Shown here: positions 5,294 to 59,500 of the stretch, in pieces
Position numbering within the stretch: position 1 is the stretch's first letter
Layout of the letters: each line of letters starts with the position of its first letter
Assembly (NCBI GenBank): GCA_016109435.1
Contig: JAEILR010000003.1
Span: 1 to 64,000 of the forward strand
Length of the DNA stretch: 64,000 nt
Direction of reading: 5' to 3'
Origin: Methanomassiliicoccus sp.
Lineage (GTDB): Archaea; Thermoplasmatota; Thermoplasmata; Methanomassiliicoccales; Methanomassiliicoccaceae
The notes under the pieces: model-generated
What the model was told of the DNA's origin: nothing
Seen by the model: only the letters and a program-made list of their open reading frames with translations
Database searches by the model: none
Position numbers and translations under genes: made by a program

Positions 5294-5857
5294 ATGGACC
5301 TCATACTGGTCGCCCTCAGCGGCATATTCCTGTTCCTCCCCGCCCTCGTCCCCAACTCCGCGGCGGTACTGTTCGGAGGCGGAACGCCGGTGGACTTCGG
5401 ACGGACGTGGAGGGGGAAGCGCATCCTGGGGGACGGCAAGACCTGGACCGGCCTCATCGGCGGGGTCGCCGCGGGGACGTCCCTGGGCATAATCCTGGTG
5501 CTGATCACCATGGGGTTGGACGTCCAGGCCCCGCTGAACTGGGGCGAGGGGCTGGAGGCCCTTGGCGTGGTGTTCGCCCTGTCCCTGGGCTCACTGCTGG
5601 GGGACATGGTGGGCGCGTTCATCAAGCGCCGGCTGGGTATGGAGAGGGGGCACAAGGCGCCTATACTCGATCAGTACGACTTCGTGGCCGGAGCGCTGGG
5701 CCTGACCGCTCTGCTGTTCCCCGCTTGGGTCGCCTCCCGGTACGTGAGCGGGGAGAGCATCATCGCCCTGATCGCCCTCCTGGTGTTCGTGCCGGTGCTG
5801 CACCGCGTCGTCAACATCATCGGGTTCAAGATGGGCAAGAAGAAGGAGCCGTGGTGA
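5294..5857 (+). CDS. carS: CDP-archaeol synthase
   Basis: Integral membrane CTP transferase (CarS/DUF46) that activates unsaturated archaeol to CDP-archaeol, the precursor of polar archaeal phospholipids. The family block VLFGGGTPVDFGRTWRG and ILGDGKTWTG is near residues 25-55, followed by hydrophobic helices and the conserved LGDMVGAFIKRRLG segment. The length of 187 aa matches the family. This gene marks the window as archaeal. The stop is followed after one base by pyrE, so the two are probably cotranscribed. Confidence 0.94.
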   Translation: MDLILVALSGIFLFLPALVPNSAAVLFGGGTPVDFGRTWRGKRILGDGKTWTGLIGGVAAGTSLGIILVLITMGLDVQAPLNWGEGLEALGVVFALSLGSLLGDMVGAFIKRRLGMERGHKAPILDQYDFVAGALGLTALLFPAWVASRYVSGESIIALIALLVFVPVLHRVVNIIGFKMGKKKEPW

Positions 5858-10105: not shown

Positions 10106-11407
10106 ATGAGCATCCGGTCGGTCGCGGTCGTCGGCGCGGGTTATGTCGGTCTGCCAGTCGCGTGCATGTTCGCCTCCAAGGGCATATCCACGCTGGCGGT
10201 GGACATCGACACGGCGCGCGTGGACAAGATCAACCGCGGCATCTCGCCCATCGAGGGAGAGGAGCCCGGACTGGCCGATCTCATCTCGACCGCTGTGAAC
10301 GGCGGGTCGCTCACCGCGACGACCGATTACGCTCGAACATCGGAGGCGGACGCCATCATCGTATGCGTGGACACGCCCATCGATGAGGGGACCAGGCAAC
10401 CGGTGCTCAAAATACTCAGATCGGCGACGAGGTCGGTGGCCGAGCACATGAGGCCCGGAGCGCTGGTATCCATCGAGTCGACGCTCCCCCCGCGCACCAT
10501 GCAGGACGTCGTGATCCCGATCCTGGAGGAGGCCAGCGGGATGAGGGTCGGGAGGGACTTCCTTCTGGTGCACTGCCCGGAGCGGGTCATGCCCGGCCGG
10601 CTGCTGAGGAACCTCTCCGAGTACGACAGGGTCCTGGGCGGTTATGACGGTGCATCGGTGGAGGCCGGGAAGGAGCTGTACTCGATAATCATGGGCGGAA
10701 AGCTGCACACCGCCGACCTTCTCCACGCTGAGATATCGAAGACCCTGGAGAACGCCTACCGGGACGTCCAGATCGCGTTCGCCAACGAAGTGGCGCTCGC
10801 CTGCGAGGAGCTCGGTGCGGACGCGTTCGAAGTTCGACGCCTCGTCAACACCTGCCCGTTCCGCGACATGCACATCCCCGGGGCCGGCGTGGGCGGTCAC
10901 TGCCTGCCGAAGGACTCGTGGCTGTTCGCTTCGTCATTGAAAGAGTTCGAACCGAAGATCATCACCACCGCTCGGGAAACGAACGAGCGCATGCCGGTGC
11001 ACATGGTCGAGCTGATCGAGAGAGGTCTTGCCGAAGCGGGCAGAGATCTCTCGAACTCCAAGATCACCATCCTCGGCCTGGCGTTCCTCCGCGACTCCGA
11101 CGACACGAGGCACTCGCCGGCCCTGACCATCATCGACCGGCTGCACGGCCGCGCCGAGCTTGTCGTCCACGACCCGTACGTGGCCAAGGAGTACCGCGCT
11201 CCCCTGCTGCGAAACCTCAATGACGCGGTCAAAGATTCGGACTGCATGGTGATCGTGACCGATCACTCCTGCTACAGGGGTCTCGATCTTGAGAGGGTTC
11301 GAAGCCTTATGCGGACGCCGGTGATCGTGGACGGAAGGAACCTGCTGTCGGCCGATGGATGCCGCTATGCGGGGTTCGTGTACCGGGGTATCGGGAAGGG
11401 AGCCTGA
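10106..11407 (+). CDS. UDP-N-acetylhexosamine 6-dehydrogenase (WecC/WbpA-like)
   Basis: UDP-sugar dehydrogenase that oxidises a UDP-HexNAc to its uronic acid in two NAD+-dependent steps. N-terminal Rossmann motif VVGAGYVGLP (residues 7-16), the VDTPI loop near 90, and the catalytic cysteine in GVGGHCLPKDSW (C266); C-terminal NAD/UDP-binding domain contains LGLAFLRDSDDTRHSP. 433 aa is normal. I cannot tell UDP-ManNAc from UDP-GlcNAc specificity by eye. With the genes at 17401-19903 it could feed a 2,3-diacetamido uronate pathway used in archaeal N-glycans. Confidence 0.86.
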   Translation: MSIRSVAVVGAGYVGLPVACMFASKGISTLAVDIDTARVDKINRGISPIEGEEPGLADLISTAVNGGSLTATTDYARTSEADAIIVCVDTPIDEGTRQPVLKILRSATRSVAEHMRPGALVSIESTLPPRTMQDVVIPILEEASGMRVGRDFLLVHCPERVMPGRLLRNLSEYDRVLGGYDGASVEAGKELYSIIMGGKLHTADLLHAEISKTLENAYRDVQIAFANEVALACEELGADAFEVRRLVNTCPFRDMHIPGAGVGGHCLPKDSWLFASSLKEFEPKIITTARETNERMPVHMVELIERGLAEAGRDLSNSKITILGLAFLRDSDDTRHSPALTIIDRLHGRAELVVHDPYVAKEYRAPLLRNLNDAVKDSDCMVIVTDHSCYRGLDLERVRSLMRTPVIVDGRNLLSADGCRYAGFVYRGIGKGA

Positions 11408-11869: not shown

Positions 11870-14800
11870 ATGGTTTCCATCACCGGAAAGTTGTTCGCCG
11901 TAGCGTGCGTGCTGGCCCTGCTGTTGACCGTGTTCCAAGCGTCGATCGACGCGGCCGCTGGTGAGGCAGGAACTATCGAAGAGATCTCATCGTTAGATGT
12001 CCCGGCCAAGCGCCTCACCATGTCCGAATCTTCAGCTCACGACTCTGAGGTCGTGACCTCCGGAGCGTTCACTCACCTTGTTTGGATCGACTCATCGAAC
12101 GGCGGCGATACGGTGCTCTGGAAGAGAACGAACGGCGACGGCACTTACACCTCGACCGAATCACTGTCCCAGCGCTTAGAGAGCATTGTCGGCATCGATA
12201 TCTCGGCGGACGACGAGGCCGTCGTCGTCGCTTACTTGGCAATGTCGAACGGCACCGCGTCCGCGTATGTGGTGTGCTCGTCCGATAACGGTCAGAGCTG
12301 GGGTAACAACTATCTTCTGGGAGAGGGCAGTGCTGTCTCGGCCTCTGTGATCGACGATCGCGCATACGTCTGCATGGCGACCACGATCGAAGGAAACGAC
12401 ACCACTGCAGTGATTGGGGCCGACATAGAAAGCGGTACACCATCGAACGCCAGCATGCTCATCGCACTGCCGTTTTCAGCGGCGTTCGTCGATGTGCTCG
12501 GCGACGAAACGGGAGTGCACTACGCCGCGGCATCGTCGAGTGTGGCGATCTACGGCCACATCGGCAACGAACTTTCGCAGCCGGTGATGATCCACGGGCA
12601 ATCCGAGGGGGAGATAGCCGACATCAAACTGATGTCCCTTGATGGGGTCGCTTCGGTGCTCATCGCCTCCGACCTTCCAACGTGCTCCCTGATATTCCTG
12701 GCCGAGAGCTTCGATGGTCCTACGCACTGGTCGGAAAGGATCCTGGCGAGCGGAGAGGGTCCGATCTTCGATCTTAGCTATGTCGATAACGGTGCCGTGA
12801 AGATCGTCTCCTGGTGCAGCGGCACAGGCGCGGTCCAGGCCCTCGAACTGGGCGGAGAGGTCCGTCAGTGGACCATCGTCAACGGTACCGCATCGTCGGC
12901 ATCAGTGTTCCTCGAAGGCGACGGCATCTCCTGCGTGTGGTCCGAGGACCGCGGCGACGGCCTGGAGCTGTACACTATATCCCACGTCCAGTTCCGTGCT
13001 ACTTCGTTCGGCGAACTGCTGAGCTACGCCGCCTCGCTCGACGAGGTGGTCTTCCGGCCTGATGTCCATGACGCGAAGGAGCATTTCCTTGACGATCTCG
13101 AGGCCATCGGAACGAGCATATTCCTCGGCGACACCGAAGGAGCGGAAGAAGGCATCGTCCATGTCATGGAGCACATCGACGGTTTCATCGTGCTCTCGCA
13201 GAGCGATGATCTCGTTCTATCGACGGCCATCAGCGAGAACATCTTCGGAAAGCTGCAGGCCGTCAGGAACGAGATCCGGACCGTCGGCCTCACGGCGGAC
13301 CCGTTCGAGGCATGGAAGATATCTCCGGCGGCGGTCCGCGCCGCCGTTCCGCCGATGCCCGCCTTCGATGAGGGCATGTCCCCTGCTTTCGGGGGCATGA
13401 CCATGTCCGTCAACGGCGAGGAGGGCGGGGACGCCCCCGGCGAGCTGGCGAACGCGGTCATGGTGGAAACCGGACGGTTCACCGGCTCGGTGAGCGGCTC
13501 GGACACCACGGACTGCTTCAAGTTCAGAGTGTACAACCCTCCGTACCACAACCAGATGATCTACATCGACCTGGACGTTCCGAGCGGTTTTGACATCGAT
13601 ATGAAGCTGTACACCCCGTCCGGGGCGCTGGTACGGACCGCGGAGCTGGGGACGGGCATCGATGAGCACATCGAGTACCTGACCTCGGCGGAAGGCTACC
13701 ACGTGGTCCAGATCTACTGGTATTCGGGCAGCGGGACCGCGAACTACGAGTGCGAGGTGAAGGTCGCCGGAGGCTTGGACTATTTCATGCTGGATGTCGG
13801 GGAGAGCAGCGACACCAACGTCGTCCTGCCCGGGCTGTCGATCAAGGACGGCAGCGGATGGAGCACGCCATCTTCATCACAGCGTAACGGTGCCGAGAAC
13901 TCGACCATCCTTCTGAACCTGTTCTCCTCTTCATACCAGGACAACACCTCGTACCTCGTCGGGTTCCGGTACTACTCTTCTTATGACGTCACCGTCTCCG
14001 TTTACAACGGAGGAGGCTGGGTGAACATCGGAACGCTGCCCGGGAAGTCTTCCTTATGGACCGCCAATCTCGTCGTTCCGAGCGAGCATTTCTACGACTC
14101 TCTTCCGGATACCATGGGCATGAACGTCATGCTCCGGTTCTCCAAGCAGATCTCCTTGGACTACGTGGACGCCGTTGGGTACTCCTACACCACCGGCGCC
14201 GCTCCGGGCGGGGCGTACCACAACCCCGGGGTTAGCTTCGAATCTGGATGGAGCTTCGACGGGGCGGTGGCCAATGGCACCTCCGGAGCGACGATCCTCG
14301 TCAACGTCCCGGTGCAGACGATGGTGTTCTCACTGGAGATCGCCTATTCCGATGCTACGGAATACATCGAGGTGCAGCAGCTTACCTCTTCCGGTTACGT
14401 GTCGATCGGGAACCTGTACCGCTGGGGCGGCTCGGCGGTGATATCGCTCAAGCGCGATCTGTACCACGACACCGATGCCTCCGCTCCCGGCTACAACATC
14501 CGGCTGAAGTTCGTCTCCTCGATAACCAACGTCACCTCGGTGACCATGCGGCCGTGCGACCTGTACACCATCGTCGGCGGGGTTTACGACGACAGCGGCC
14601 GATACCGGAACCCGGGAGTCAACATATACAACAACGGCCACTGGTCGTCGTCCTTGTCGGACGGCGGACGAAGCTATCGCTCCACGCTGGACGGCAGCGC
14701 CACCTTCTTCGTGAACGGCCCTGTCTCCGGCAACTTCCACGAGCTCGAGCTGGTGTATCGGTCAGCGAGTTCGTTCACGGTGTCGCAGTGGACCGGTTCC

Positions 14801-17125
14801 TCGTTCGTCGCTGTTCACGATGTTCCGGCGAGCGCGTCGTGGACGACCGCGTCGTTCCGCACGAGTTCGAACTTCGTCGACTACATGTGGAGCACCCAGC
14901 TGAATGTCCTCTTCCGGATCGGCACAGCTTCGGTCTCGGTCGCAGAGATCCACCTGCTCATCGACAGCGATAACGACGGCTCGGTCGACCGCATGGAAGC
15001 GGACCGCAGCGCCGGCCGGTACCTCGATCCGTTCTCCAAGGACACCGACTCTGACGGCATCGATGATATCGACGAGGGCTACTTCGGAACGGTCTACGGC
15101 CACACCAGCCCGTGGGACCCCGACACCGATAACGACGGCCTGCTGGACGGAGCTGAACGATGGTCGCAGAGCTGGTCCACCGACAAGTTCTACAAGGTGC
15201 CGAACGGCTCTTGGACCGACCGAGCGGTGATGGCCATAACCGTACCTTCCATCCCGAGCTCGGTGGAGATCACCGCAGTCAGGGTGCACGTCGGAGTCAT
15301 CACCGACCGCGCCGAGGATATCGAGATATGGATGTACAAGGTCGGCTCCGGACTGCCTAACCTGTGCCTCTATGACAACTGGAATACTGGAGCGAACGTG
15401 TTCGAGACCTATGTTCCGCTCTCGCCGCACTATACGATGTCTCTGTACTATCAGGGAGGCACCTTCGAGTTCATGGTTGCCGATCTGAACTCCGCCGGAT
15501 CGGACGGTCAGGTGCAGTATATTACATTGGTGATCGAGGGACGGACGGACCCGCTGGACAGAGACACTGATGACGACGGCATCTGGGACGGGGAAGAGGT
15601 GAACCTAGGCAATGACGGCTGGATCACCAACCCGACACTAAGAGATACCGATGATGATGGGATTTTGGATCTCAGTGAAATCATATGCGTCACGCCGTGC
15701 GGCAGGCCTCTTGACCCTACATCCGTAGATACCGACGGGGACGGCTTCAAGGACAACGTGGACAAATACCTCGGGGACATGATGCTGCACGTAAACATCA
15801 ACTGGCTCAACTTGTGGGAGAGCATCAACACTGGCAATAAGCACAATATCTTCTTCGTCTTGACCTATTACGACGATATCACCGATACAACGGTCTCTCT
15901 ATCCACCGAACGCCTGATCGACGTGTGGACTCACGAGGGCCGGTACTTCAACTTCAACTATTACATTTCTGTGGACGATACCGGGACGAGCAAGAACTTC
16001 AAGTTCATGGCGGTGGCCGATAACGCCGGCACGATTGGTGACGATATCCTTCTTGATTGCGAGGCAACCGGGGTCGACACCTGCGAATATTATCTGACAT
16101 GTAACTATACCGATGGGAGAACCGACTTCGCCGCCAAGGCCGAGCTCTATGGCGGCAGTGACTGGAACTCCGAATGCGAGGTCCGTTTTTACATTGAACC
16201 GGTGATCGCTCCGAAGAGCAACCTCATCATCGTCAACTCGACCGAGGAGAACAGCGACCTCTACGTTGTATACCGGAGCATCTACCCCGACTACCGCTAC
16301 ACTGCCGATGGGCAGGTGTACATGCTGTACATCACCGTGCCGGGCAACAGCGCGCACTTCTCCCCTGGGGTAAATACCATCATCGTGCCCCGCTACTTGG
16401 CGCTCGAATCGAAGTTCAGCGATGTACTGACCTCGAACCCTTCGGGGAGCGAGCTGTCCGGCGGGCAGTTCTATTCCACCGATGGTTCACAGGCTTTCAG
16501 CTCCGGGCACATCGTTGCGGTGTTCGAGAAGACGATGAGCAATTACGCGGCGGAGGAACTACTGGGGGAACTGACGCACAATTCGACGAACGCGCAAATC
16601 GCCAACACAGTTCAAGTGAGCGGGGAGGCGTTATACCGCCTCCATCTCCCGGCCGACATGCAGTCCCGGATACCATACAATATCCAATCATCGGAGATTG
16701 GGGAGCCGTATGACTTCCTGACCGTCGGCGAGGTCCTCGAGTTCGTCTTCGATTGCCTGGTCTGGATCGGCACCACGCTCTACAACCTCGCCGACATGAT
16801 GTACCAGGCCGGGGTCAGGCTGATCAGCACCATCACGAACGCCTACATATCGGTGATACGGACGGCGGTCGACAAGATCGTCGACGCCTTCGAGGCGTTC
16901 GTGACGTGGGCGGTGGAGTTCATAGAAAGCGTTATCGATACTGTACTTGGTCCGATAATAGATGAGATTCAGCTGGCGATCGACGATTATGGTCAAGGAG
17001 CGGTCAGCGCCCTTGCCAGGGCGGAAAGCGACTACGAGGCCTTCGGAAGCGTCAAGGCATCGACCATTTCCTCGTTCTCCAACGCCCTCGGTGGAAGTTT
17101 GTACCAGATCATAATCGCTTTGTAA
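11870..17125 (+). CDS. giant secreted/surface protein with PPC-like, beta-sandwich and TSP3 repeats
   Basis: A 1751-residue protein with an N-terminal signal peptide (hydrophobic core about residues 6-24). Residues 30-500 resemble a beta-propeller-type exoprotein region. About 521-634 is a PPC-like (pre-peptidase C-terminal) domain. About 634-1030 holds tandem beta-sandwich modules that resemble one another. Thrombospondin type 3/calcium-binding repeats lie at about 1031-1096 and 1225-1301 (DTDSDGIDD, DTDNDGLLDG, DTDDDGIWDG, DTDDDGILDL, DTDGDGFKDN), separated by a P-domain-like sandwich. The last ~135 residues are predicted amphipathic helices, not a sortase or PGF-type anchor. Likely an extracellular calcium-binding surface protein; function unknown. 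It interrupts an aminosugar-biosynthesis region. Confidence 0.85.
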   Translation: MVSITGKLFAVACVLALLLTVFQASIDAAAGEAGTIEEISSLDVPAKRLTMSESSAHDSEVVTSGAFTHLVWIDSSNGGDTVLWKRTNGDGTYTSTESLSQRLESIVGIDISADDEAVVVAYLAMSNGTASAYVVCSSDNGQSWGNNYLLGEGSAVSASVIDDRAYVCMATTIEGNDTTAVIGADIESGTPSNASMLIALPFSAAFVDVLGDETGVHYAAASSSVAIYGHIGNELSQPVMIHGQSEGEIADIKLMSLDGVASVLIASDLPTCSLIFLAESFDGPTHWSERILASGEGPIFDLSYVDNGAVKIVSWCSGTGAVQALELGGEVRQWTIVNGTASSASVFLEGDGISCVWSEDRGDGLELYTISHVQFRATSFGELLSYAASLDEVVFRPDVHDAKEHFLDDLEAIGTSIFLGDTEGAEEGIVHVMEHIDGFIVLSQSDDLVLSTAISENIFGKLQAVRNEIRTVGLTADPFEAWKISPAAVRAAVPPMPAFDEGMSPAFGGMTMSVNGEEGGDAPGELANAVMVETGRFTGSVSGSDTTDCFKFRVYNPPYHNQMIYIDLDVPSGFDIDMKLYTPSGALVRTAELGTGIDEHIEYLTSAEGYHVVQIYWYSGSGTANYECEVKVAGGLDYFMLDVGESSDTNVVLPGLSIKDGSGWSTPSSSQRNGAENSTILLNLFSSSYQDNTSYLVGFRYYSSYDVTVSVYNGGGWVNIGTLPGKSSLWTANLVVPSEHFYDSLPDTMGMNVMLRFSKQISLDYVDAVGYSYTTGAAPGGAYHNPGVSFESGWSFDGAVANGTSGATILVNVPVQTMVFSLEIAYSDATEYIEVQQLTSSGYVSIGNLYRWGGSAVISLKRDLYHDTDASAPGYNIRLKFVSSITNVTSVTMRPCDLYTIVGGVYDDSGRYRNPGVNIYNNGHWSSSLSDGGRSYRSTLDGSATFFVNGPVSGNFHELELVYRSASSFTVSQWTGSSFVAVHDVPASASWTTASFRTSSNFVDYMWSTQLNVLFRIGTASVSVAEIHLLIDSDNDGSVDRMEADRSAGRYLDPFSKDTDSDGIDDIDEGYFGTVYGHTSPWDPDTDNDGLLDGAERWSQSWSTDKFYKVPNGSWTDRAVMAITVPSIPSSVEITAVRVHVGVITDRAEDIEIWMYKVGSGLPNLCLYDNWNTGANVFETYVPLSPHYTMSLYYQGGTFEFMVADLNSAGSDGQVQYITLVIEGRTDPLDRDTDDDGIWDGEEVNLGNDGWITNPTLRDTDDDGILDLSEIICVTPCGRPLDPTSVDTDGDGFKDNVDKYLGDMMLHVNINWLNLWESINTGNKHNIFFVLTYYDDITDTTVSLSTERLIDVWTHEGRYFNFNYYISVDDTGTSKNFKFMAVADNAGTIGDDILLDCEATGVDTCEYYLTCNYTDGRTDFAAKAELYGGSDWNSECEVRFYIEPVIAPKSNLIIVNSTEENSDLYVVYRSIYPDYRYTADGQVYMLYITVPGNSAHFSPGVNTIIVPRYLALESKFSDVLTSNPSGSELSGGQFYSTDGSQAFSSGHIVAVFEKTMSNYAAEELLGELTHNSTNAQIANTVQVSGEALYRLHLPADMQSRIPYNIQSSEIGEPYDFLTVGEVLEFVFDCLVWIGTTLYNLADMMYQAGVRLISTITNAYISVIRTAVDKIVDAFEAFVTWAVEFIESVIDTVLGPIIDEIQLAIDDYGQGAVSALARAESDYEAFGSVKASTISSFSNALGGSLYQIIIAL

Positions 17126-17400
17126 GTGCCGGTGGCCGCATCCTTGCTGTAGTATGGCCATGGTGTGTGGCCCCATCGGATGCGGATATCGGGCATTCCT
17201 GAAGCAGCATCTTTTTGTCCGTAGATGGTCGATAGGGCAGCGTTAATCCCTACTTAGTAGGTCCGGTGCCCATAGTTCGCAGATCACGGAACACGAGAAG
17301 TTGATGGATGGCCGCTATTAACACGGACAAGCAATCGTCCAATGGTCGGCTGCGATCAACCACCAAATGTTTATTGGCAAATAGATGTTACGCAGGCCAG
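17126..17400. other. intergenic region upstream of the LbH acetyltransferase
   Basis: No gene with a recognisable motif. A T-run (CTTTTTG, about 17210) could end the giant-protein message. TTTATTGGCAAAT near 17370-17382 is a TATA-like box about 20-30 bases before the ATG at 17401. A frame from 17308 would extend the acetyltransferase by 31 residues of unconvincing sequence. Confidence 0.4.
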
Positions 17401-17853
17401 ATGAAGCTCTTGGCCAAGTATTACCTGATAAATGATTGCGAGATCGGAGAGGACACTATCGTCCGCGATTTCGTCAACTTATACGGGTGCAAGATCGGCC
17501 GAGAGTGCAGGATCGCCGCCTATGTCGAGATCCAGCGCGGCGTGGTCATCGGTGACCGAGTGAAGGTGGAAGCCTTCGCCTTCATCCCTTCGGGCGTCAC
17601 CATCGAGGACGAGGTCTTCATCGGACCGCGGGCGACGTTCACCAACGACCTCCATCCCCGGGCGGTGGGGGACTGGGAGATCATCCCCACCCTGGTCAAG
17701 AAAGGGGCCTCCATCGGCGCCGGCGCGGTCATCGTATGCGGCGTGACGATAGGCGAGAACGCCATGGTGGGCGCCGGCGCGGTGGTCACCAGGGACGTGC
17801 CCCCGGGAGCGGTGGTGGCCGGCAACCCGGCCCGCGAGATCAAGAGGAAGTGA
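17401..17853 (+). CDS. left-handed beta-helix acetyltransferase (WbpD/WlbB-like)
   Basis: Hexapeptide-repeat transferase of 150 aa. Repeats such as CEIGEDTIVRDFVNLYG, GVTIEDEVFIGPRATF and GASIGAGAVIVCGVTIGENAMVGAGAVV run through the whole chain and end in VVAGNPAREIKRK. This matches UDP-2-acetamido-3-amino-uronate N-acetyltransferases, which acetylate the 3-amino group made by the next gene's product. The ATG at 17401 follows a TATA-like box. Five bases separate it from the aminotransferase gene. Confidence 0.83.
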   Translation: MKLLAKYYLINDCEIGEDTIVRDFVNLYGCKIGRECRIAAYVEIQRGVVIGDRVKVEAFAFIPSGVTIEDEVFIGPRATFTNDLHPRAVGDWEIIPTLVKKGASIGAGAVIVCGVTIGENAMVGAGAVVTRDVPPGAVVAGNPAREIKRK

Positions 17854-17858
17854 GCAAG

Positions 17859-18953
17859 ATGAACAAGATCCCTGTATCCAGGCCGACCGTCACCGACGAG
17901 ATGGTGGCGGCCATGGCCGATGCGGTGCGCAACGAGCGGATGGTCCTCGGCGAGAGCGTGTTCCGCTTCGAAGAAGAGTTCGCCCGCTACATCGGCACCA
18001 AGCATGCCATATCCGTTTCCTCGGGGACGGACGCGCTCATCCTCACCATGATGGCGCTCAACGTCCGGGGGAGAGAGGTCATCACCACCCCCCTCTCCTT
18101 CATCGCCACTGCCAATGCCATCGTTCACGCCGGGGCCACCCCCATCTTCGCCGACGCCTCGCTGAAGGATTACAACATCGAGCCGTCGGAGGTTCGTCCC
18201 GGGCGGGACACCGCGGCAGTGATGCCGGTGCACCTGTTCGGGTACCCCGCGCGGATGGACGAGATCCGGGAGAACGCCGGAGAGAGGGTCAAGATCGTGG
18301 AGGACGCCTGCCAGGCCCATGGGGCGGTGTACAAGGGGAGGAAGGTCGGAGCCCTGGGCGATGCCGGCTGCTTCTCCTTCTATGCCACCAAGAACATGAC
18401 CGTGGGCGGGGACGGGGGGATGATCACCACCAGCGATGACCGCCTGGCCGCCGACCTGCGGAAGCTGCGGGACTGCGGGCGGGTCTCGAGATACGAGCAC
18501 GACGTGTTCGGCTTCACCGCCCGCCTCAACACCGCCAACGCCGCCTTCGGCCGGGTGCAGCTGCGCCATCTGGACGGGTGGAACGAGCGGCGGCGGGCGA
18601 TCGCCCGGCGGTACGCCGAGAGGCTGAAGGACGTCGAGGAGATCGTCCTCCCGCCCACGGGGTCCAGGGACGTCGTCCCGGTGTTCCACCTGTTCGTCAT
18701 CCAGGCCGAGGACCGCGACGCCCTGGCCCGAACGCTGCTGGAAAGGAACATCGAGGCCCTGGTGCACTATCCGATACCGATCCACCTCCAGCCGGTGTAC
18801 CGCGACGCCCTGGGCATGTCCGAGGGCTCCTACCCCGACAGCGAGAGGCTGGCGGGAAGAGTGCTCTCCCTTCCCATATTCCCCACCCTCACCGACGAGG
18901 AAGTGGACTGGGTGTGCCAGGCCATCGTCGAGCACTACGGGGGAAAGGCATGA
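17859..18953 (+). CDS. DegT/DnrJ/EryC1 PLP aminotransferase (WbpE-like)
   Basis: Sugar aminotransferase of 364 aa that installs an amino group on a keto-sugar nucleotide. Family features: SSGTDALIL near residue 53, EDACQAHGA, and the PLP lysine in FYATKNMTVGGDGG. The FNxR/LNTANAAFGRVQL segment supports a WbpE/GnnB-type 3-aminotransferase. The ATG at 17859 follows a ribosome-like GAGCAAG and sits right after the acetyltransferase; upstream frame extension would overlap that gene. The stop overlaps the next start (ATGA). Confidence 0.87.
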   Translation: MNKIPVSRPTVTDEMVAAMADAVRNERMVLGESVFRFEEEFARYIGTKHAISVSSGTDALILTMMALNVRGREVITTPLSFIATANAIVHAGATPIFADASLKDYNIEPSEVRPGRDTAAVMPVHLFGYPARMDEIRENAGERVKIVEDACQAHGAVYKGRKVGALGDAGCFSFYATKNMTVGGDGGMITTSDDRLAADLRKLRDCGRVSRYEHDVFGFTARLNTANAAFGRVQLRHLDGWNERRRAIARRYAERLKDVEEIVLPPTGSRDVVPVFHLFVIQAEDRDALARTLLERNIEALVHYPIPIHLQPVYRDALGMSEGSYPDSERLAGRVLSLPIFPTLTDEEVDWVCQAIVEHYGGKA

Positions 18954-19903
18954 GGAGGATCGAGGTCGCCGTCCTCGGAGTTGGCTACTGGGGCAAGAAG
19001 ATCGTCGACGAGTACAGCAACATCCCCGGAGTGAAGGTCAAGGCGGTCTCGGACCAGCTGGACAAGAACCTGGAGTTCTGCCGGGACCGCTACAAGGTGG
19101 AGAACCTCTACCACGATTACCGAGAGGTGCTGGAGGACGACGGCATTACCGCGGTCAACGTCTGCCTGCCCAACGTGCTCCACTACCAGGCCTGCAAGGA
19201 CGCCCTGGAAGCGGGCAAGCACGTCCTGGTGGAGAAGCCGATCACCCTGAGCTCGCAGGAGGGTCGCGAACTGGTGGAGATGGCCGGGGAGAGGAACCTG
19301 ACCCTTTCGGTCGGGCACATCTACCGGTTCAACAACGCGCTGCTGGAGGTGCGGCGGCTGATGGGCCAGAACTTCTTCGGCAAGCCGTACAACATGAACT
19401 TCGTGTGGATGAACCTGGAGCCGGCGTTCCCCGACCGGGACGTCATCGTCGACCTCGCTCCTCACTTCTTCGATATGGTCAACTTCATCTTCGATTCCTG
19501 GCCGTCCCGGATCACCTGCGTGGGAAGACCGTACCGGAGGAAGGAGATGGAGGAGCTGGCGTACATCACCTGCGAGATGCCGTCGGGGGTGCTGGCGAAC
19601 GCCACCCTGAGCTGGCTGGCCCCCCGCAAGGTGCGCCAGATCGAGATCGTGGGGGAGAACCGCTCCGCGCTCATCGACGCGGTGGGCCAGGAGGTCACGG
19701 TCTACGAGAGCGGGTACACCTACAAGCTGGGGATCGAGCGCAACAATACCATCCGCACCGAGCTGATAAACTTCCTGCAGTCCATCGGCGACCCGTCCAC
19801 CGAGACCCGGAACTCCGGCACCATCGGCGTGAGGACGGTGGAGATGATCGAGAAGAGCATGGATTCCCTGAGGGGCGGCAGGACGGTCGACACCGGCATC
19901 TGA
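18950..19903 (+). CDS. Gfo/Idh/MocA-family oxidoreductase (WbpB/WlbA-like)
   Basis: A 317-aa sugar-nucleotide dehydrogenase. Rossmann start VAVLGVGYWGKK (residues 6-17), LVEKPITL near 93 carrying the catalytic EKP, and DLAPHFFDMVNF in the C-terminal domain. The adjoining aminotransferase and acetyltransferase make it the best candidate for the C3 dehydrogenase that supplies the 3-keto sugar. Coupled translation: its ATG overlaps the previous stop, and its own stop overlaps the next ATG. Confidence 0.85.
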   Translation: MRRIEVAVLGVGYWGKKIVDEYSNIPGVKVKAVSDQLDKNLEFCRDRYKVENLYHDYREVLEDDGITAVNVCLPNVLHYQACKDALEAGKHVLVEKPITLSSQEGRELVEMAGERNLTLSVGHIYRFNNALLEVRRLMGQNFFGKPYNMNFVWMNLEPAFPDRDVIVDLAPHFFDMVNFIFDSWPSRITCVGRPYRRKEMEELAYITCEMPSGVLANATLSWLAPRKVRQIEIVGENRSALIDAVGQEVTVYESGYTYKLGIERNNTIRTELINFLQSIGDPSTETRNSGTIGVRTVEMIEKSMDSLRGGRTVDTGI

Positions 19904-21027
19904 TGGCCATGAGCGACGTCCTGATGCTGGTCACCAACGAGTACCGCCCCGACCCCAGGGTGCACAAGGAGGCGAAGGCGCTCATCGACGGCGGCCACGT
20001 GGTCACCGTCGCGGCGTGGGACCGGCTGCGGTCGCGACCGCCCGTCGAGGAGGTGGAGGGAGTGCGCCTCCACCGCGTCCGGACCGGGAAGGTCGGTGGC
20101 CAGCTCGCTCTGGTGCTGAACTACCCGCTGTTCCTGCTCCGCTCGCTGGGGGCGGCCCGGGCGATCCGTCCGGACATCGTCCACGCTCATGATCTCGATA
20201 CACTCCCCATCGGCCTGCTCATCGCCCGGCTGAGGCGCATCCCCGTCGTCTACGACGCCCACGAGCGTTACGCCAAGATGATCGCCATGGACGTGCCCGC
20301 CGCGGTGTCGCGCCTGGTGGAAAGGTTCGAGCGGTCGCTGCTGCCGAAGGCGGACCTGGTCATCACCATCAACGAGGCCATGGCCGCGGAGCTGGAGAAG
20401 CATTCCCGGGACGAGGTGGTGGTCATCATGAACGTCATCGAGCTTCCTCCAGCCTCGAAGGTGAAGGCGCACCGGCCGCACGACGTCATCGTGCTCTTCA
20501 ACCCCGTGACCTTCGAGCCGATGCGGTACCTCGAGGAGAGCATGGAGGCGGCAGCGAAGATCAACGGCTGTATCCTCAGGCTCGCCGGCTCCGGCCGGCT
20601 GCTGCCGGCGGTGGAGAGGGCGGCGAAGGAGCATGCCAACGTCGAGTTCCTCGGTCACCTGCCGTTCACCAAGTTGATGGAGGAGTACGAGAAGGTAGAC
20701 GTGGTGCTAATCCTGGCCGACCCGGCCAACGAGAACTACCGCACCGGAACGGCGAACAAGATGGGGGAAGGCATGGCGTTCGGCCTTCCGCTGCTGGCCT
20801 CCCGGGGCACGCTGAGCGCCGATGTAGTGGAGAGGGAGGGCTGCGGCCTCACCTTTGACTGGAGCGAGGAGAACTTCAGGCAGGCCATCGACCGCTTGAG
20901 GGACGCGGCCTTCAGGGAGGAGATGGGCCGAAAGGGCCGGGCCGCGGCGGAACGGGAGTACAACTGGGGGGCGATGAGGGAGCGGCTGCAGGCCGCCTAC
21001 CGCCGCCTCCTGTCCCCCGCCCAGTGA
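19903..21027 (+). CDS. family 4 glycosyltransferase (GT-B)
   Basis: GT-B glycosyltransferase of 374 aa. N-terminal acceptor domain begins [19 protein letters not shown]; the middle has [14 protein letters not shown]; the C-terminal donor domain contains [16 protein letters not shown] with a shortened E-X7-E-like motif. No membrane segment beyond a hydrophobic patch. Start ATG at 19903 (TGATG overlap with the upstream gene); 19909 is an alternative. Likely builds the glycan that uses the aminosugar made by the upstream genes. Confidence 0.86.
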
Positions 21028-21158: not shown

Positions 21159-22076
21159 GTGCTTACTCTGCCCATCACCCTGAATGATATTCTTGACGTG
21201 ATCCGATGCCAGCATACCGTCGTGGGGCCGAAGGACCGCAGCGTGGACGGGCCGTCCCCCATCGACACGGCCGGGGAGCGATCACTGACCTTCTGCAACC
21301 GGCAGGGAGAGAGGGGAAGTAAAATGCTGGAGGCCACCGCCGCAGGTATCGTCATCACCGGCCGAGAGCACGAAGGGCTGTGCCGCGACCTCGGCGGCCG
21401 CACCTTCGTCCTGGTCGATGACCCCCGGCTGGCCTTCGCCCGGGTGCTGGACCGCTACTTCTCGGTGAGCTGGCCCGCGGGGATCAGCGATGACGCCCGC
21501 GTCAGCGAGGATGCGATCATCGGCAAGGAGGTTCACATCGGCCCGTTCTGCGCCGTGGGCAGGGACGTTATCATAGGCGACGGGTCCCGTCTGGAAGGAT
21601 CGGTCACGGTGCATGACGGGGTCACCATCGGGCGGAACGTCATTATCCGCGCCGGGGCGGTCATCGGGACCGACGGGTTCGGGTTCAACCGCAACGAAGC
21701 CGGCGCGTTGGAGAAGTTCCCCCAGGTGGGCGGAGTGGTGATCGAGGACGACGTGGAGATCGGCAGCAACGTGTGCGTGGCCCGGGGCACCATGGCCGAC
21801 ACCCGCATCGGGCGGGGGACCAAGATCGACAACCTGGTGCAGGTGGCCCACAACGTCCAGATCGGGGAGGACGGCCTCATCACTTCCATGGTGTGGCTGG
21901 GGGGCAGCGTGAGAATCGGGGACCGCTGCTGGCTCTCGCCCATGGTGTCGGTATTGAACGGAGTTTGCATCGGTGATGATGTCACAGTGGCCATGGGCTC
22001 CTCGGTCATCAGGGACGTGCCCTCGGGGCAGTTCGTAGCCGGCAACCCCGCCCGGCCGACCATCCGGAAGGAGTAA
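21159..22076 (+). CDS. LpxD-like left-handed beta-helix acyltransferase
   Basis: About 305 aa. The N-terminal part ([18 protein letters not shown]...LTFCNR...[18 protein letters not shown]) resembles the uridine-binding domain of LpxD, then hexapeptide repeats cover about residues 110-300, including [11 protein letters not shown], which in LpxD precedes the catalytic histidine; here [12 protein letters not shown] supplies the histidine. LpxD transfers acyl groups from ACP to the amine of UDP-3-acyl-GlcN. In an archaeon without lipid A the acceptor is unknown. GTG at 21159 is my preferred start; no better in-frame start is seen. acpS follows two bases after its stop. Confidence 0.78.
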
Positions 22077-22733: not shown

Positions 22734-24218
22734 ATGACGATGAACTTCGTCGAGTTCCTGTTCGAGAATTCCCGCTTCTCTGACCAGGAGTTCATCGCCG
22801 GGACCGGTGAGAAGATCACCTTCCGGGAACTGTATGACAGGGTCGAGGACCTGTCCCGATGGATGGCCCGGGAGCATGGTTCTGGGAACGAGGTCCTCAT
22901 CCTGGCGGACAACAGCGTGTTCTTCGTCCTCGCCTACCTCGCCACCATGAGGAGCGGGAACGTCCCCCTGCTAGTGGAGACCCGCATCTCCGGGGAGGAC
23001 CTCGCCGCGCTCATGTCCGCCTGCCATCCGTTGATGGCGTTCGTGCAGAGGCGTCTTGCCGCCAAAGCGGTGCCTGGGCTGCCGACGCTCACCGAGGACG
23101 ACCTGCCCGAAGCGGTCGCGGAGGACGTCCGTGCGCGGGTATCGGAGGACGACCTGGCGGTGGTTGTGTTCACCTCCGGCAGCACCGGCAATAAGAAGGG
23201 GGTGATGATCACCCATGGAAACCTTATCGCCAACACCTCGTCCATCGTGGAATACCTTGACCTGACCGCAGAGGACCGCATGATGGTGGTCCTCCCGTTC
23301 TACTACTGCTACGGGGCGTCCCTGCTGCACACCCACCTGCGCGCCGGCGGCAGCCTGGTGCTCAGCCAAAGCATCTTCCTGGGAGCGGTGCTGGCCGACA
23401 TCGACCGATACGAGTGCACCGGGCTGGCGGGAGTACCTTCGACCTTCCAGATCCTGATGGCCCGCACCAAGTTCCTGGAGCGTCGCTTTCCTACCCTCCG
23501 CTACATGACCCAGGCCGGCGGCCGCCTGGAGCCGAAGGCCATCATCGCCATCGCCGACGCGTTCCCTGACGTCCGGTTCTACGTGATGTACGGAGCCACG
23601 GAGGCCACCGCCCGCCTGTCGTACCTTCCGCCGGACCTGCTGAGGTCAAAGACGGCGTCCATCGGGAAGGGCATATCAGGCGTTAGCCTGGAGGTCCTGG
23701 ACGAGAACGGCCGGCCGGTCCGCCCGGGCCAGACCGGGGAGGTGGTGGCCGCGGGCAGGAACATCATGAAGGGCTACTACGGCGACGAGGAGGGGACCAG
23801 GGAGGTGCTGACCGACGGCCGGTACCGCACCGGGGACCTGGCCACGGTCGACGAGGACGGATACATCTACATCGTCGGAAGGGCTCGGGACATCATCAAG
23901 TGCGCCGGCTACCGCGTCTCGCCGTACGAGATCGAGAGCGTGGTGGCGGCCGCCGATGGGGTCGACACCTCGGCCGTGGTCGGAGTTCCGGACGACCTCC
24001 TGGGAGAGGCCATCGTGGCCGCGGTGCTGAGGAAGGGCGGGACCTCCGAAGAAGAGGTCAAGGAGAGCGTTCTGGCGCGCTGCCGTCAGGCTCTCCCGTC
24101 GTACAAGGTCCCGAAGCTTGTCGTCTTCCTGGAGGAGATGCCGCTCAACTCCTCCAACAAGGTGGACAAGATCCGAATCCGGCAGATGCTGGCAAGAGGT
24201 GAGCTCCCTGTCCGGTGA
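22734..24218 (+). CDS. AMP-forming acyl-(ACP/CoA) ligase
   Basis: ANL-superfamily adenylate-forming enzyme of 494 aa. P-loop VVFTSGSTGNKKG at about residues 144-156, YGATEATARLSYLPP near 283, YRTGDLATVDEDGY near 365, hinge GRARDIIKCAGYRVSPYEIE and the C-terminal catalytic lysine in NSSNKVDKIR. Because the ACP gene is immediately upstream, it may load a carboxylic acid directly on ACP rather than on CoA. ATG at 22734; ATG at 22740 is also possible. Its stop lies past the next start, giving a 20-base overlap. Confidence 0.87.
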   Translation: MTMNFVEFLFENSRFSDQEFIAGTGEKITFRELYDRVEDLSRWMAREHGSGNEVLILADNSVFFVLAYLATMRSGNVPLLVETRISGEDLAALMSACHPLMAFVQRRLAAKAVPGLPTLTEDDLPEAVAEDVRARVSEDDLAVVVFTSGSTGNKKGVMITHGNLIANTSSIVEYLDLTAEDRMMVVLPFYYCYGASLLHTHLRAGGSLVLSQSIFLGAVLADIDRYECTGLAGVPSTFQILMARTKFLERRFPTLRYMTQAGGRLEPKAIIAIADAFPDVRFYVMYGATEATARLSYLPPDLLRSKTASIGKGISGVSLEVLDENGRPVRPGQTGEVVAAGRNIMKGYYGDEEGTREVLTDGRYRTGDLATVDEDGYIYIVGRARDIIKCAGYRVSPYEIESVVAAADGVDTSAVVGVPDDLLGEAIVAAVLRKGGTSEEEVKESVLARCRQALPSYKVPKLVVFLEEMPLNSSNKVDKIRIRQMLARGELPVR

Positions 24219-25302
24219 CCTCGACGAGCTGCTGCGCATCCCTCCTTACTCCTTGCGTGAGGAGGACAAGGAGGCCCGCCTTCTGGCACTGATCCGCTCC
24301 GGGGCCCGGAGAGCGCAGTCCAACATCCACATCCGTTCGATGTACTCCAAGCTGGGCGTCGTCCCTGAGGTCATTCCCTCGCTCTCGTCCGTTCCTGCGG
24401 TGCCCGTCCGCATGTTCAAGGACTTCGACCTGGCCACCTGCGCGCCGGAGGACGTGATCAGGGTCCTGCGTTCCAGCGGGACCACCTCCCAGCGGCCCAG
24501 CGTCGTCCCGCTGGACAAGGCCACCGCGAGCAACCAGACCAAGGCGCTCAGAAGCATCCTGGGGGCGTACCTCGGCGAGCGCAGGAGGGTCATGCTGGTC
24601 ATCGACCATCCGGGGGTGAACGCCCCGGGCCGGGAGCTGAGCGCCCGGGGGGCAGGGGTCAGGGGACTATCCATATTCGCCCGCGAGGTGATCTACCTCC
24701 TCCGGGAGGAGGACGGACGGCTGGTGGTGGACGAGCAGGCGCTGGACCGGGCGAGGGAGCTGTCATCCACCAACGAGGTCTACGTCTTCGGGTTCACGTT
24801 CATCATCTGGTCGGCGTTCTGCGCCCAGATGGAGGAACGGGGCTGGAAGCTAAACCTCCCCCAGGCGGTGGTGTTCCACGGGGGCGGGTGGAAGAAGCTC
24901 AAGGACAAGAAGGTCGGCCGGGGAGCGTTCTCCGCCCGGCTGTCGTCCATCCTGGGCTGTGATCCGGCGGAGGTTCGGGACTTCTACGGCATGGCCGAGC
25001 AGACCGGGGTCATCTTCGTGGACTGCGAGCTGGGAAGGAAGCACGTCCCGGCGTTCGGGCAGGTGATCATCCGGGACGTCCAGACCCTGAAGGAGTGCCC
25101 GGTGGGCAAGAGGGGCCTCATCGAGGTGATGAGCGTGCTGGGTGAGAGCTACTACGGCCAGGCGGTCCTCACCGAGGACGCGGGAACACTGCTGGGCATC
25201 GACGACTGCCCATGCGGGCGGAAGGGCCGGTACTTCGTGGTGGAGGGAAGGGCGGAGCAGGCCGAGGCCAGGGGCTGCGGCGACACCTTCCGGGAGCGGT
25301 GA
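24199..25302 (+). CDS. LuxE/PaaK-like acyl-protein synthetase
   Basis: 367 aa, adenylate-forming LuxE family. The ATP/acyl-adenylate motif LRSSGTTSQRPSVVPLDK begins at about residue 90, and DFYGMAEQTGVIFVDCELG and a GYYG/SYYGQAVLTED region follow. LuxE activates a fatty acid and holds it as an acyl-enzyme for LuxC. No luciferase genes are present. GTG at 24199 is the only sensible start (a longer frame would overlap the ligase deeply). luxC follows one base after its stop. Confidence 0.8.
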   Translation: MSSLSGDLDELLRIPPYSLREEDKEARLLALIRSGARRAQSNIHIRSMYSKLGVVPEVIPSLSSVPAVPVRMFKDFDLATCAPEDVIRVLRSSGTTSQRPSVVPLDKATASNQTKALRSILGAYLGERRRVMLVIDHPGVNAPGRELSARGAGVRGLSIFAREVIYLLREEDGRLVVDEQALDRARELSSTNEVYVFGFTFIIWSAFCAQMEERGWKLNLPQAVVFHGGGWKKLKDKKVGRGAFSARLSSILGCDPAEVRDFYGMAEQTGVIFVDCELGRKHVPAFGQVIIRDVQTLKECPVGKRGLIEVMSVLGESYYGQAVLTEDAGTLLGIDDCPCGRKGRYFVVEGRAEQAEARGCGDTFRER

Positions 25303-25303: not shown

Positions 25304-26605
25304 ATGATGAGATGCCACCTCCTGGACGGAAGGTTCGAGGACACCGAGATCGATGACCTGGACGATGTCGTGGCCGTCCTGGAGGAGCGGCGCGGGGAGC
25401 TGCACCGTCTGACGATGGGGGACATCATTGATCTTCTCGACAAGCTGGGGAAGGAGCTGATACGAGACCCGGCCACGAGTAGCGTGGATGGGGCGAGCTA
25501 CATCGGCCTGTGGCTGAGGAGGGAGAACCTCGAGCGGCTGTGCTCCCTTAACTACGGCCGCTCGGAGATGCTCGACCGCCCCTGCGAGGTGCGGCCGGGG
25601 ACCCTCATGAGAGCCCAGCCCCGGGGGATATCCTGCCACTGGCTGCCCAACAACGTCGCCACCATGGCCTTCTTCTCCCTCATGCTGAGCATACTTTCCA
25701 AGAACGCATCCCTGCTCAAGGTGTCCGAGGTCAGCCGGCCGGTGCTGACCCCGGTGCTGAGGAAGCTTGGGGAGATATCGATGGAGAGGGACGGCAGGAA
25801 AGTGTCCGGAGCGACGGTCCTCGCCGCGGTGTGCATGATCTCCTTCGACTCGTCCCGCACCGAGGACAACGTCCGCATGTCCAGGGCCGCGGACGTCCGC
25901 GTGGTGTGGGGCGGGAGCGAGGCGGTGCAGGGTGTCGCCGCCCTGCCGCAGAAGGACACCTGCGATACCCTCCTGTTCGGCCCCAAGTACTCCCTGGCGG
26001 TGTTCGACCAGGCGTACCTGGAGCGGGAGGGCATCGACCGCACCATGCGCCAGCTGGCGATGGACGCGGCGCTCTTCAATCAGTCCGCGTGCTCCTCCCC
26101 CCAGGTCGTCCTGCTGGAACGGGGGAGGGTCACGGCCAAGGAGTTCGCCAAACGCCTGGCGGAAGGGTTCGAGAGCCTGCCCCCGCGATTGCTGGGCGCG
26201 GAGAAGCCGGAATCGATGTGCCTGGACGTGATCAACGCCCGGGGACGGTACCTGCTGTCGGAGGACCGCGACATCGTGATGTCCCCCGACCTCGGCTGGA
26301 CGGTCCTCATCGACAGCGAGGAAGGCCTGCCCGAGCCGGTCCAGGGGCGGTGCGTGTTCGTACGGGAGGTCGATGACCTGCTCCGCGCGGCGGGATGGCT
26401 CACCAGGAAGGTGCAGACCGTGGCGCTGTGCGTCGGGGACACGAGGAAGAGGGAGGAGTTCGCGGAGAGGGCTTCCTACGCCGGGGTGGACCGGTTCGTC
26501 CTCCCCGGGGAGATGAACGATTTCACCCTGCCCTGGGACGGCATGCTCCCGCTGGGCAGGATGGTGCGCTGGGTTACGGTAAGGAGGGAAAAGGATGCTC
26601 AATGA
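25304..26605 (+). CDS. LuxC-like acyl-CoA/acyl-protein reductase
   Basis: NADPH-dependent acyl reductase of the aldehyde-dehydrogenase superfamily, 433 aa. The catalytic cysteine is C263 in FNQSACSSPQVV, the family consensus QQACxSPQ. WLPNNVATMAFFSLMLSILSKNASLLK forms the cofactor-fold region. LuxC reduces the acyl group presented by LuxE to an aldehyde. Here it lies between LuxE-like and FabG-like genes, with an 11-base overlap into the latter. Confidence 0.8.
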   Translation: MMRCHLLDGRFEDTEIDDLDDVVAVLEERRGELHRLTMGDIIDLLDKLGKELIRDPATSSVDGASYIGLWLRRENLERLCSLNYGRSEMLDRPCEVRPGTLMRAQPRGISCHWLPNNVATMAFFSLMLSILSKNASLLKVSEVSRPVLTPVLRKLGEISMERDGRKVSGATVLAAVCMISFDSSRTEDNVRMSRAADVRVVWGGSEAVQGVAALPQKDTCDTLLFGPKYSLAVFDQAYLEREGIDRTMRQLAMDAALFNQSACSSPQVVLLERGRVTAKEFAKRLAEGFESLPPRLLGAEKPESMCLDVINARGRYLLSEDRDIVMSPDLGWTVLIDSEEGLPEPVQGRCVFVREVDDLLRAAGWLTRKVQTVALCVGDTRKREEFAERASYAGVDRFVLPGEMNDFTLPWDGMLPLGRMVRWVTVRREKDAQ

Positions 26606-27335
26606 CAAGATCGTGCTGGTCACCGGGGCCGGCCGCGGGATCGGAAGGGCGATCGCCAGGGCCGCCGCCGAGGCCGGCGCGCTGGTCATCATCAACTACA
26701 ATAGCAGCTGGGTCGAGGCTCTCAGCCTGGTCGAGGAGCTGAACAAGAAGGGGCTGAGGGCCGAGAGCTACAAGGCCGACGTGTCCTCGGAGCAGGACGT
26801 CCAGTCGATGTTCAAGTTCGTCCGGGAGAGGTTCGGCCGCCTGGATGTGCTGGTCAACAACGCCGGGGTCATGAGCAGCACCTTAATACAGATGACCTCG
26901 GCCGAGGATCTGGATAAGGTCATGAACGTCAACTGCCGCGGCTCCTTCCTGTGCCTGCGGGCGGCCGCCAAGATGATGTCCCGGCAAAAGGACGGACGGA
27001 TCATCAATATGACCTCCATCGTCGGCCGTACGGGCAATCGCGGGCAGGTCGCTTACTCGGCGAGCAAGGCGTTCATTATCGGCATGACGCTGTCCGCGGC
27101 CGAGGAGCTGGGACCGAGCGGCATCCGGGTCAACGCCATCGCCCCGGGGTTCATCGAAACGGATATGACCAAGGGCCTCAAGGAGGAGGTGAGGAAGGAG
27201 AGGATCGCCGACACCCCCCTGGGCCGTGCCGGCACGCCCGAGGACGTCGCCGCAGTAGCGCTCTTCCTCATGTCCGATCAGAGCGGCTTCATCAACGGCC
27301 AGGTCATCGGGGTCGACGGCGGCCAGAGGATGTGA
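26595..27335 (+). CDS. SDR-family 3-oxoacyl-ACP reductase-like protein
   Basis: FabG-type short-chain dehydrogenase of 246 aa. Cofactor motif TGAGRGIG at residues 10-17, NNAG in VLVNNAGV, catalytic Ser in NMTSIVGRTGNRG, and Y154-x3-K158 in VAYSASKAF; the C-terminus GQVIGVDGGQRM is typical. Neighbouring ACP and reductase genes suggest it reduces a 3-oxoacyl-ACP or the aldehyde produced by LuxC. It overlaps luxC-like and ends three bases before the convergent PIG-L gene. Confidence 0.87.
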   Translation: MLNDKIVLVTGAGRGIGRAIARAAAEAGALVIINYNSSWVEALSLVEELNKKGLRAESYKADVSSEQDVQSMFKFVRERFGRLDVLVNNAGVMSSTLIQMTSAEDLDKVMNVNCRGSFLCLRAAAKMMSRQKDGRIINMTSIVGRTGNRGQVAYSASKAFIIGMTLSAAEELGPSGIRVNAIAPGFIETDMTKGLKEEVRKERIADTPLGRAGTPEDVAAVALFLMSDQSGFINGQVIGVDGGQRM

Positions 27336-27338: not shown

Positions 27339-27971
27339 TCACAGCCTCCACCGGATGACCTCGAAGGCCTCGGCGAAGGTGTTGTTGCACTGCACCCCGT
27401 GCATGCGGGCCATGCCGAAGATGAACTCCCTTTCGAAGTAGCCGCGATGGTTGACCATCTGGGAGCGGTACTCCTGCAGGGCGTCCCACTTCCTCTGCAT
27501 ATGCCTCTCCTCCAGAGGTACGAACAACTGGCTGTCGAACCTGACGTTGTTCCAGGGAAGCTCGTAGCTGATGATGCTGGACGAGGACTTGAAGGCGCGG
27601 ACCATCTCGTTGGCCACGACCTGATGGTCCTGATGGTAATCGTGCATCGACGGGCCGATGACGATGTCCGGGGAGAACTTCGAGCGAATCTTCACCAGGT
27701 GGTCGAGGACCTCCTGCCGGTGCTCGCTCATGTGCCGGACCCTGAACCCCAGTATCTCCCTTTGCTCCTCTCCCAGGCCATATCCCTGGACCACCTTCTC
27801 GAACTCCCTGGCCAAGGTGTCCTTGGGCATGCCCGCGGGCAGGGAGTCCTCGGCCACCGAGAACGCGATCCACAGGATCTCATGGCCCTGCTCGATGAAC
27901 TTGGCCACGCTCCCTCCGCATCCCAGTTCCACGTCGTCGGTGTGCGGTGACAGCAGCAGGGTCCTCGTCAT
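27339..27971 (-). CDS. PIG-L/LmbE-family deacetylase
   Basis: Zinc hydrolase that removes N-acyl groups from GlcNAc-type substrates. The zinc motif SPHTDDVELGCGGS (residues 8-21) and the second zinc histidine in HDYHQDHQ are present. 210 aa from ATG at 27971, which lies 24-32 bases downstream of a TATA box; a longer frame from 28112 has no support. It points toward the acyl operon and could expose the amine acylated by the LpxD-like enzyme, but this is only inference. Confidence 0.85.
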   Translation of the reverse strand: MTRTLLLSPHTDDVELGCGGSVAKFIEQGHEILWIAFSVAEDSLPAGMPKDTLAREFEKVVQGYGLGEEQREILGFRVRHMSEHRQEVLDHLVKIRSKFSPDIVIGPSMHDYHQDHQVVANEMVRAFKSSSSIISYELPWNNVRFDSQLFVPLEERHMQRKWDALQEYRSQMVNHRGYFEREFIFGMARMHGVQCNNTFAEAFEVIRWRL

Positions 27972-27994
27972 CGCCCGGGGAACGGCCGTTCGGC

Positions 27995-28003
27995 TCTTAT
28001 ACC
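27995..28003 (-). promoter_or_regulatory. TATA box of the PIG-L gene
   Basis: On the minus strand reads GGTATAAGA, 24-32 bases before the ATG at 27971, implying a leaderless transcript. Confidence 0.55.
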
Positions 28004-28199
28004 TAGCGTCCCGCCGGGGCGGGGGCGGGAGGAGGACGGATAGGTTAGCGGGCACCGCCGACGATGAGGCCGCGGCAGTACGGCCTGACCGCCCAAGGGG
28101 TGCCCGAAGCAAATAATCGACCGATTTTAATACAATTTTTTATTGACATACTGGCTCGGAGGTCGGGAGAGGGGTCGAAATTCGGTATGGGGGCAACAA

Positions 28200-59466: not shown

Positions 59467-59500
59467 TGGTCGACACCTCTTCAGGACCAATGACCGGGCC

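Follow-up and report, generated by a model that had tools for sequence, protein, structure and literature searches.

A predicted LpxD-like acyltransferase encoded with an acyl carrier protein cassette in a methanogen glycan locus

In bioluminescence, an acid is activated and then reduced to the aldehyde by LuxE and LuxC. The two families are found together with an acyl carrier protein (ACP), a FabG-type SDR and an AMP ligase in flagellin glycosylation islands of Aeromonas (group II; PMC7874193) and of Enterobacteriaceae (PMC4875605). The authors of these island surveys suggested a liposugar as the product (PMC7874193, PMC4875605); no biochemical study of the ACP/ligase/LuxE/LuxC/FabG module was found among the papers searched. 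In P. syringae, the viosamine island (VioB, acp, VioR, VioS) yields an amino sugar with an N-(3-hydroxybutyryl) group, as was tested genetically (PMC3927599). The few fatty acids of archaea are thought to be made without ACP, which has been recognised in a small number of archaea that acquired it from bacteria (PMC3533463).

We analysed the window, i.e. the whole stretch of 64,000 nucleotides, and all five families of the flagellin-island module were found together in a glycan locus. They belong to a cassette of seven tightly packed or overlapping genes in the order LpxD-like, AcpS, ACP, AMP ligase, LuxE, LuxC, FabG. The relevant genes are:

5294-5857, plus strand: CarS, CDP-archaeol synthase, a marker of archaeal membrane lipids (PF01864, 148.6 bits)
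10106-11407, plus strand: UDP-sugar 6-dehydrogenase family protein with UDP-ManNAcA / GalNAcA dehydrogenases among its relatives
17308-17853, plus strand: hexapeptide N-acetyltransferase in the flanking conserved operon; nearest solved relatives WxcM-like, 7s43, WlbB (3mqg) and QdtC
17859-18953, plus strand: DegT-family sugar aminotransferase; closest relatives a scyllo-inositol transaminase and QdtB, while WbpE ranks lower
18950-19903, plus strand: Gfo/Idh/MocA-type oxidoreductase, putative sugar 3-dehydrogenase
19903-21027, plus strand: GT4 glycosyltransferase, bordering the cassette on the left
21159-22076, plus strand: LpxD-like N-acyltransferase (predicted), 305 aa, GTG start; codon of the catalytic His231 at 21849-21851; DGFGF loop
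22079-22489, plus strand: AcpS-type 4'-phosphopantetheinyl transferase; no other PF01648 match was found in the genome
22473-22727, plus strand: acyl carrier protein, 84 aa, WDSL attachment motif with Ser41 (codon 22593-22595), the only PF00550 match found in the genome
22734-24218, plus strand: AMP-forming acyl ligase, presumed to load the ACP; best NCBIfam match ligase_PEP_1, below cut-off
24208-25302, plus strand: LuxE-type acyl-protein synthetase (start codon uncertain) that shares its C-terminal Cys with LuxE of 7xc6
25304-26605, plus strand: LuxC-type acyl-thioester reductase; its active-site Cys lies in FNQSACSSPQ, which aligns with LuxC of 7xc6
26595-27335, plus strand: FabG-like short-chain reductase, final gene of the cassette
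27339-28112, minus strand: PIG-L/LmbE-type deacetylase, right border of the cassette; retained in the cassette-less genome G006

From left to right, the locus runs from the hexapeptide N-acetyltransferase through DegT, Gfo/Idh and GT4 to the seven-gene cassette, followed by the PIG-L gene on the opposite strand and, beyond it, smc. A gap of 131 bases separates the GT4 gene from the LpxD-like gene. All seven cassette genes are under purifying selection (dN/dS about 0.1-0.4); for the LpxD-like gene this follows from a dN/dS of about 0.2-0.35 among four same-genus orthologues of 59-74% identity. Just upstream of the amino-sugar operon, at 11870-17125 of the window, a protein of 1751 aa with an apparent signal peptide and no Pfam match is encoded, a candidate glycosylated surface protein. 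Elsewhere in the window we noticed adjacent agmatine-deiminase-type (PAD_porph) and carbon-nitrogen hydrolase genes (57506-59490, minus strand), a pairing typical of the route from agmatine to putrescine, and an arginase-family gene at 42548-43450.

The archaeal cassette differs from the flagellin islands in carrying its own AcpS and an LpxD-like transferase. Further bacterial ACP/LuxE/LuxC modules were sampled from plasmid records and papers. In those on plasmids of Deinococcus sp. NW-56, Rhizobium and Ponticoccus, LuxE is 38-42% and ACP 28-38% identical to the window proteins, and a ligase, LuxC and an SDR are present too; these plasmid modules likewise stand in polysaccharide or other glycan loci. 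The Deinococcus and Rhizobium modules have a NeuD/VioB-like hexapeptide partner beside or near them (family assigned by eye), whereas the archaeon has the LpxD-like protein; no hexapeptide partner is annotated for the Ponticoccus module. AcpS is annotated in none of the three, in contrast to the archaeal cassette, and the hosts of these modules are expected to have an AcpS of their own. In the archaeal cassette, an LpxD-like protein fills the slot of the hexapeptide transferase, and AcpS is an addition. The plasmid LuxE proteins are closer to that of the window than are its relatives in the phylum (25-33% identity), which mostly occur with LuxC but without the ACP block and were rejected as the same system; such pairs lie at L133, L134, L135, L136, L138 and L139. 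In the viosamine island, much as we propose here, a nucleotide amino sugar is N-acylated with the help of a sugar acyltransferase, an ACP reserved for the island and a ketoreductase (PMC3927599). VioB, however, belongs to another transferase family (213 aa, annotated as an acetyltransferase), chain building relies there on the KASIII VioS, which is absent from the cassette, and LuxE and LuxC are absent there.

Pfam recognised in the window protein the LpxD N-domain PF04613 (43.7 bits, cut-off 30.8) and, beside it, five hexapeptide stretches, so that both features of the LpxD superfamily, the N-terminal domain and the left-handed hexapeptide helix, are present. The NCBIfam LpxD subfamily NF002060 scored 265.9 (cut-off 207); with the lipid A LpxD equivalog TIGR01853 the protein stayed just under the cut-off (238.1 vs 242.5), which the orthologue of G003 (L103 11646-12578) exceeded with 254.4. 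The beta-helix with an FGF-type loop, described earlier from the sequence, was borne out by the five stretches and the loop IGTDGFGF. The catalytic His lies in AHNVQIG, where His231 corresponds to E. coli His239. In a phmmer search, LpxD crystal structures came first (2.8e-40), followed by LpxA and acetyltransferases. An AlphaFold2 model, computed from an input of 40 window and bacterial sequences, had a mean pLDDT of 95.6. All 25 of its best PDB matches were LpxDs, with 310-321 columns aligned and TM up to 0.86, and the ACP-bound LpxD 4ihh was among the whole-chain matches (TM 0.86). The N-terminal domain, whose failure to superpose with LpxD would have refuted the sequence-only reading, is thus included in the match, and LpxA (TM about 0.58) and QdtC (TM 0.42) were well behind. 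The profiles and the model identify the protein as a predicted member of the LpxD superfamily with the LpxD fold along the entire chain. Its nearest matches in the genome collection were mostly bacterial LpxDs, many of them in fabZ/lpxA operons, and were uninformative on function.

Residue by residue, we aligned the protein with LpxD using the roles given in PMC6286764 and E. coli numbering; that paper prints R193 as an ACP-contacting residue, but E. coli 193 is Val, so R293 was taken as meant. Equivalents of His239, Gly257, Phe41, Phe183 and Asp232 are retained, those of H239, G257 and D232 in all five genus orthologues, and His231 and Gly249 (of GGS) are conserved in all aligned homologues. 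The position of the beta-hydroxyl-binding Q236 is Q or H in the orthologues, as in most lipid A LpxDs, and that of R293 is basic (R/K). The two-domain fold, FGF loop, catalytic His, oxyanion Gly and beta-hydroxyl-binding Asp are shared with the lipid A LpxDs of E. coli, C. trachomatis and P. aeruginosa, whereas the C-terminal ACP-binding helix domain, His276 and Tyr47 are not. His276 was found in 28 of 28 LpxDs from lipid A loci and in 0 of 10 proteins of the window protein's clade, and Asp216 is lost in all five genus orthologues. From position 308 on, 7 residues are left, compared with 27-52 in LpxDs, and the chain ends in a GNPAR motif. Motifs of the GNPAR type are usual in acetyl-CoA enzymes. 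In a quick tree with some long branches and an unsure inner order, the genus clade was joined by LpxD-like proteins of two other archaeal orders, of a Sphingomonas polysaccharide plasmid and of two Bacillota, and this group stood on a branch apart from the lipid A LpxDs (SH-aLRT 97).

In E. coli LpxD, His276 binds pyrophosphate and the H276A exchange reduces kcat 32-fold, while Y47A is almost silent (PMC6286764). Since His276 is lost here, the alignment indicates that the phosphate region of the acceptor must be handled differently than in LpxD. The N-terminus had earlier been described as uridine-binding-like; the LpxD N-domain is indeed there, but the uracil-stacking Tyr47 and the pyrophosphate-binding His276 are gone, so the case for uridine binding is weaker than that description implied.

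The sequence-only reading had seen an LpxD-like acyltransferase in an organism without lipid A, and the domains, the fold and the host agree with it. The host genome contains mcrA and the host is a methanogen, whose order comprises relatives with small genomes, and the use of carS as a marker of archaeal lipids was confirmed by the PF01864 match. LpxC was not found in the host genome, and there is no lpxA, lpxC, fabZ or lpxB at the locus. In a methanogen that has CarS and lacks LpxC, the enzyme does not serve lipid A synthesis, which is also ruled out by the separate tree branch and the loss of His276, Tyr47 and the C-terminal domain. It could be argued that the gene is a lipid A lpxD on a contaminating bacterial contig, as the estimated contamination of the genome is 5.7% and the protein nearly reaches TIGR01853. 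However, CarS, a Nop-domain protein and smc are encoded on the same contig, the codon third positions of the cassette agree with those of its flanks, and the protein falls outside the lipid A LpxDs in the tree; moreover, the cassette is syntenic across five genomes in separate assemblies, which refutes contamination, and we regard its probability as negligible.

The whole cassette is present in five of the seven genomes of the genus, in identical order and at the same site (LpxD-like proteins 58-74% identical). In G006 the flanking operon and PIG-L are retained, but the space from GT4 to PIG-L is filled by ATP-grasp and PHP-type genes, and in G002 ATP-grasp and PHP-type genes follow GT4 as far as the contig end. 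Such genes (PHP-type phosphatase-like; families assigned by eye) were seen at the cassette site of two sister genomes at L106 7742-9516 and L107 5034-6461. In another genus of the family a GT2 gene occupies this position (two genomes checked). The position suggests a swap site for glycan-modifying gene sets. Presence among relatives is all or none, and the seven genes are therefore gained or lost as one unit. The AcpS and ACP families occur in exactly the five cassette-bearing genomes of 21 relatives, in one copy each, inside the cassette. This uniqueness is valid for the host genome and its near relatives and not for the order, in which genus g17 has a PPTase-family protein; such proteins are also found in other parts of the phylum.

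LpxD-like proteins in the absence of lipid A are not unique to this host; one is also encoded in a bacterium of the Lachnospiraceae. Proteins with the LpxD N-terminal domain are encoded in glycan loci on plasmids of the haloarchaea Halorientalis and Halobaculum; they lie on a far branch of the tree and, unlike here, no ACP gene is annotated near them. In the archaeon G381, of another order, an LpxD-like gene adjoins one that resembles polysaccharide deacetylase genes (L119 9534-18502); its only detected ACP lies with an AMP ligase and AcpS 4-9 kb from the LpxD-like gene, with opposite-strand genes between. Directly before the LpxD-like gene, three distant lineages encode a protein of 238-260 aa (L119 10448-11227, L120 8895-9659, L028 8277-8990). 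Its two archaeal copies resemble polysaccharide deacetylases, with weak Pfam matches below cut-off, and the Lachnospiraceae copy is similar by eye and has no Pfam match. The protein and the LpxD-like enzyme may form a deacetylate-then-reacylate pair.

What donor does the enzyme use? As the earlier reading also held, an ACP-dependent donor is the likeliest, because the adjoining genes are the only AcpS and the only ACP detected in the genome, and this genomic linkage is the evidence for acyl-ACP use, together with the similar, looser linkage in G381; we favour acyl-ACP with moderate confidence and consider acyl-CoA rather unlikely. In the latter case, to which as a whole we give a similarly low probability, the protein would be a sugar N-acetyltransferase using acetyl-CoA or a short acyl-CoA, like WbpD, WlbB and QdtC, and the product of the module would merely share the glycan. 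The missing ACP-binding C-terminal domain of E. coli LpxD and the acetyltransferase-like GNPAR end point in this direction and count against acyl-ACP. So does the related archaeon G348 (92% complete genome), which has an LpxD-like homologue but no detected ACP, and the LpxD-like clade therefore need not use ACP; likewise, the homologues on the Sphingomonas, Halorientalis and Halobaculum plasmids have no ACP gene among their annotated neighbours. On the other hand, the LpxD-like gene stands directly before AcpS and ACP and is gained and lost with them as a block, the fold is closest to LpxD, with LpxA and QdtC clearly behind, and the orthologues retain D232 and the Q/H236 position, which in LpxD hold the beta-hydroxyacyl chain.

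On balance, we lean towards an acyl-ACP-dependent N-acyltransferase that modifies a nucleotide-activated amino sugar for a surface glycan and is served by a self-contained acyl-ACP kit. We infer the following course. AcpS would arm the cassette's own ACP, the AMP ligase would load a carboxylic acid onto it, and FabG could reduce the 3-oxo to the 3-hydroxy acyl-ACP. The nucleotide-activated amino sugar would then receive, on its free amine, an acyl group (perhaps 3-hydroxyacyl and short) from the LpxD-like trimer, with His231 as the base and Gly249 (GGS) forming the oxyanion hole, and glycosyltransferases would incorporate the acylated sugar into the surface glycan. It is unlikely that chains are built de novo on this ACP, because the single ketoacyl-synthase match in the host genome is weak (19 bits). 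Two observations do not fit easily: LuxE and LuxC would yield an aldehyde, which N-acylation does not require, and the sugar-pathway acetyltransferase is retained in relatives without the cassette. A fatty aldehyde or alcohol made by LuxE and LuxC could instead be the main product, with the LpxD-like enzyme adding a long acyl chain that anchors the glycan in the membrane. The catalytic cysteines are kept in both proteins, and a liposugar was suggested for the same module (PMC7874193, PMC4875605), but without a convincing ketoacyl synthase the chains would have to be scavenged, the genome lacks LpxC and chain length cannot be read here from the ruler position (E. coli M290), so we consider such a lipo-sugar improbable.

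The flanking operon offers a candidate for the sugar acceptor. The relatives of its DegT and acetyltransferase proteins, together with the UDP-sugar dehydrogenase, make a 3-amino or 2,3-diamino sugar pathway likely. The gene had been placed directly after such a 2,3-diaminosugar-type pathway; the acetyltransferase, DegT and Gfo/Idh genes are real, but GT4 (about 19903-21027) lies between. The pathway as such is likely, but its sugar is less convincing as the acceptor, as the pathway already includes an acetyltransferase (17308-17853) and also occurs in relatives without the LpxD-like gene; for the same reason, the enzyme may act on an amine other than that of this pathway. An amino-sugar acceptor in general is supported by analogy: the Halobaculum LpxD-like gene adjoins Gfo/Idh, DegT and acyltransferase genes, and that of Pseudobutyrivibrio (Lachnospiraceae) adjoins Gfo/Idh and DegT genes.

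Automated annotation may misname archaeal glycan enzymes as lipid A LpxD, because one orthologue (G003) passes the curated TIGR01853 cut-off. Beyond this, it is a tentative proposal, to which we give slightly less than an even chance, that a methanogen took over a complete, portable acyl-ACP kit of bacterial origin, AcpS included, in which an LpxD derivative adds a non-acetyl (hydroxy)acyl group to an amino sugar of the surface glycan. If true, acyl-ACP chemistry would be at work in an archaeon otherwise without detectable ACP or bacterial fatty acid synthase. The only detected ACP and AcpS lie in a cassette tied to an amino-sugar/glycosyltransferase operon, and the sister genomes without it are a natural control; together they allow a clear test of the role of ACP in an archaeon. 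The same system could show the product of the LuxE/LuxC module in bacterial flagellin-glycan islands.
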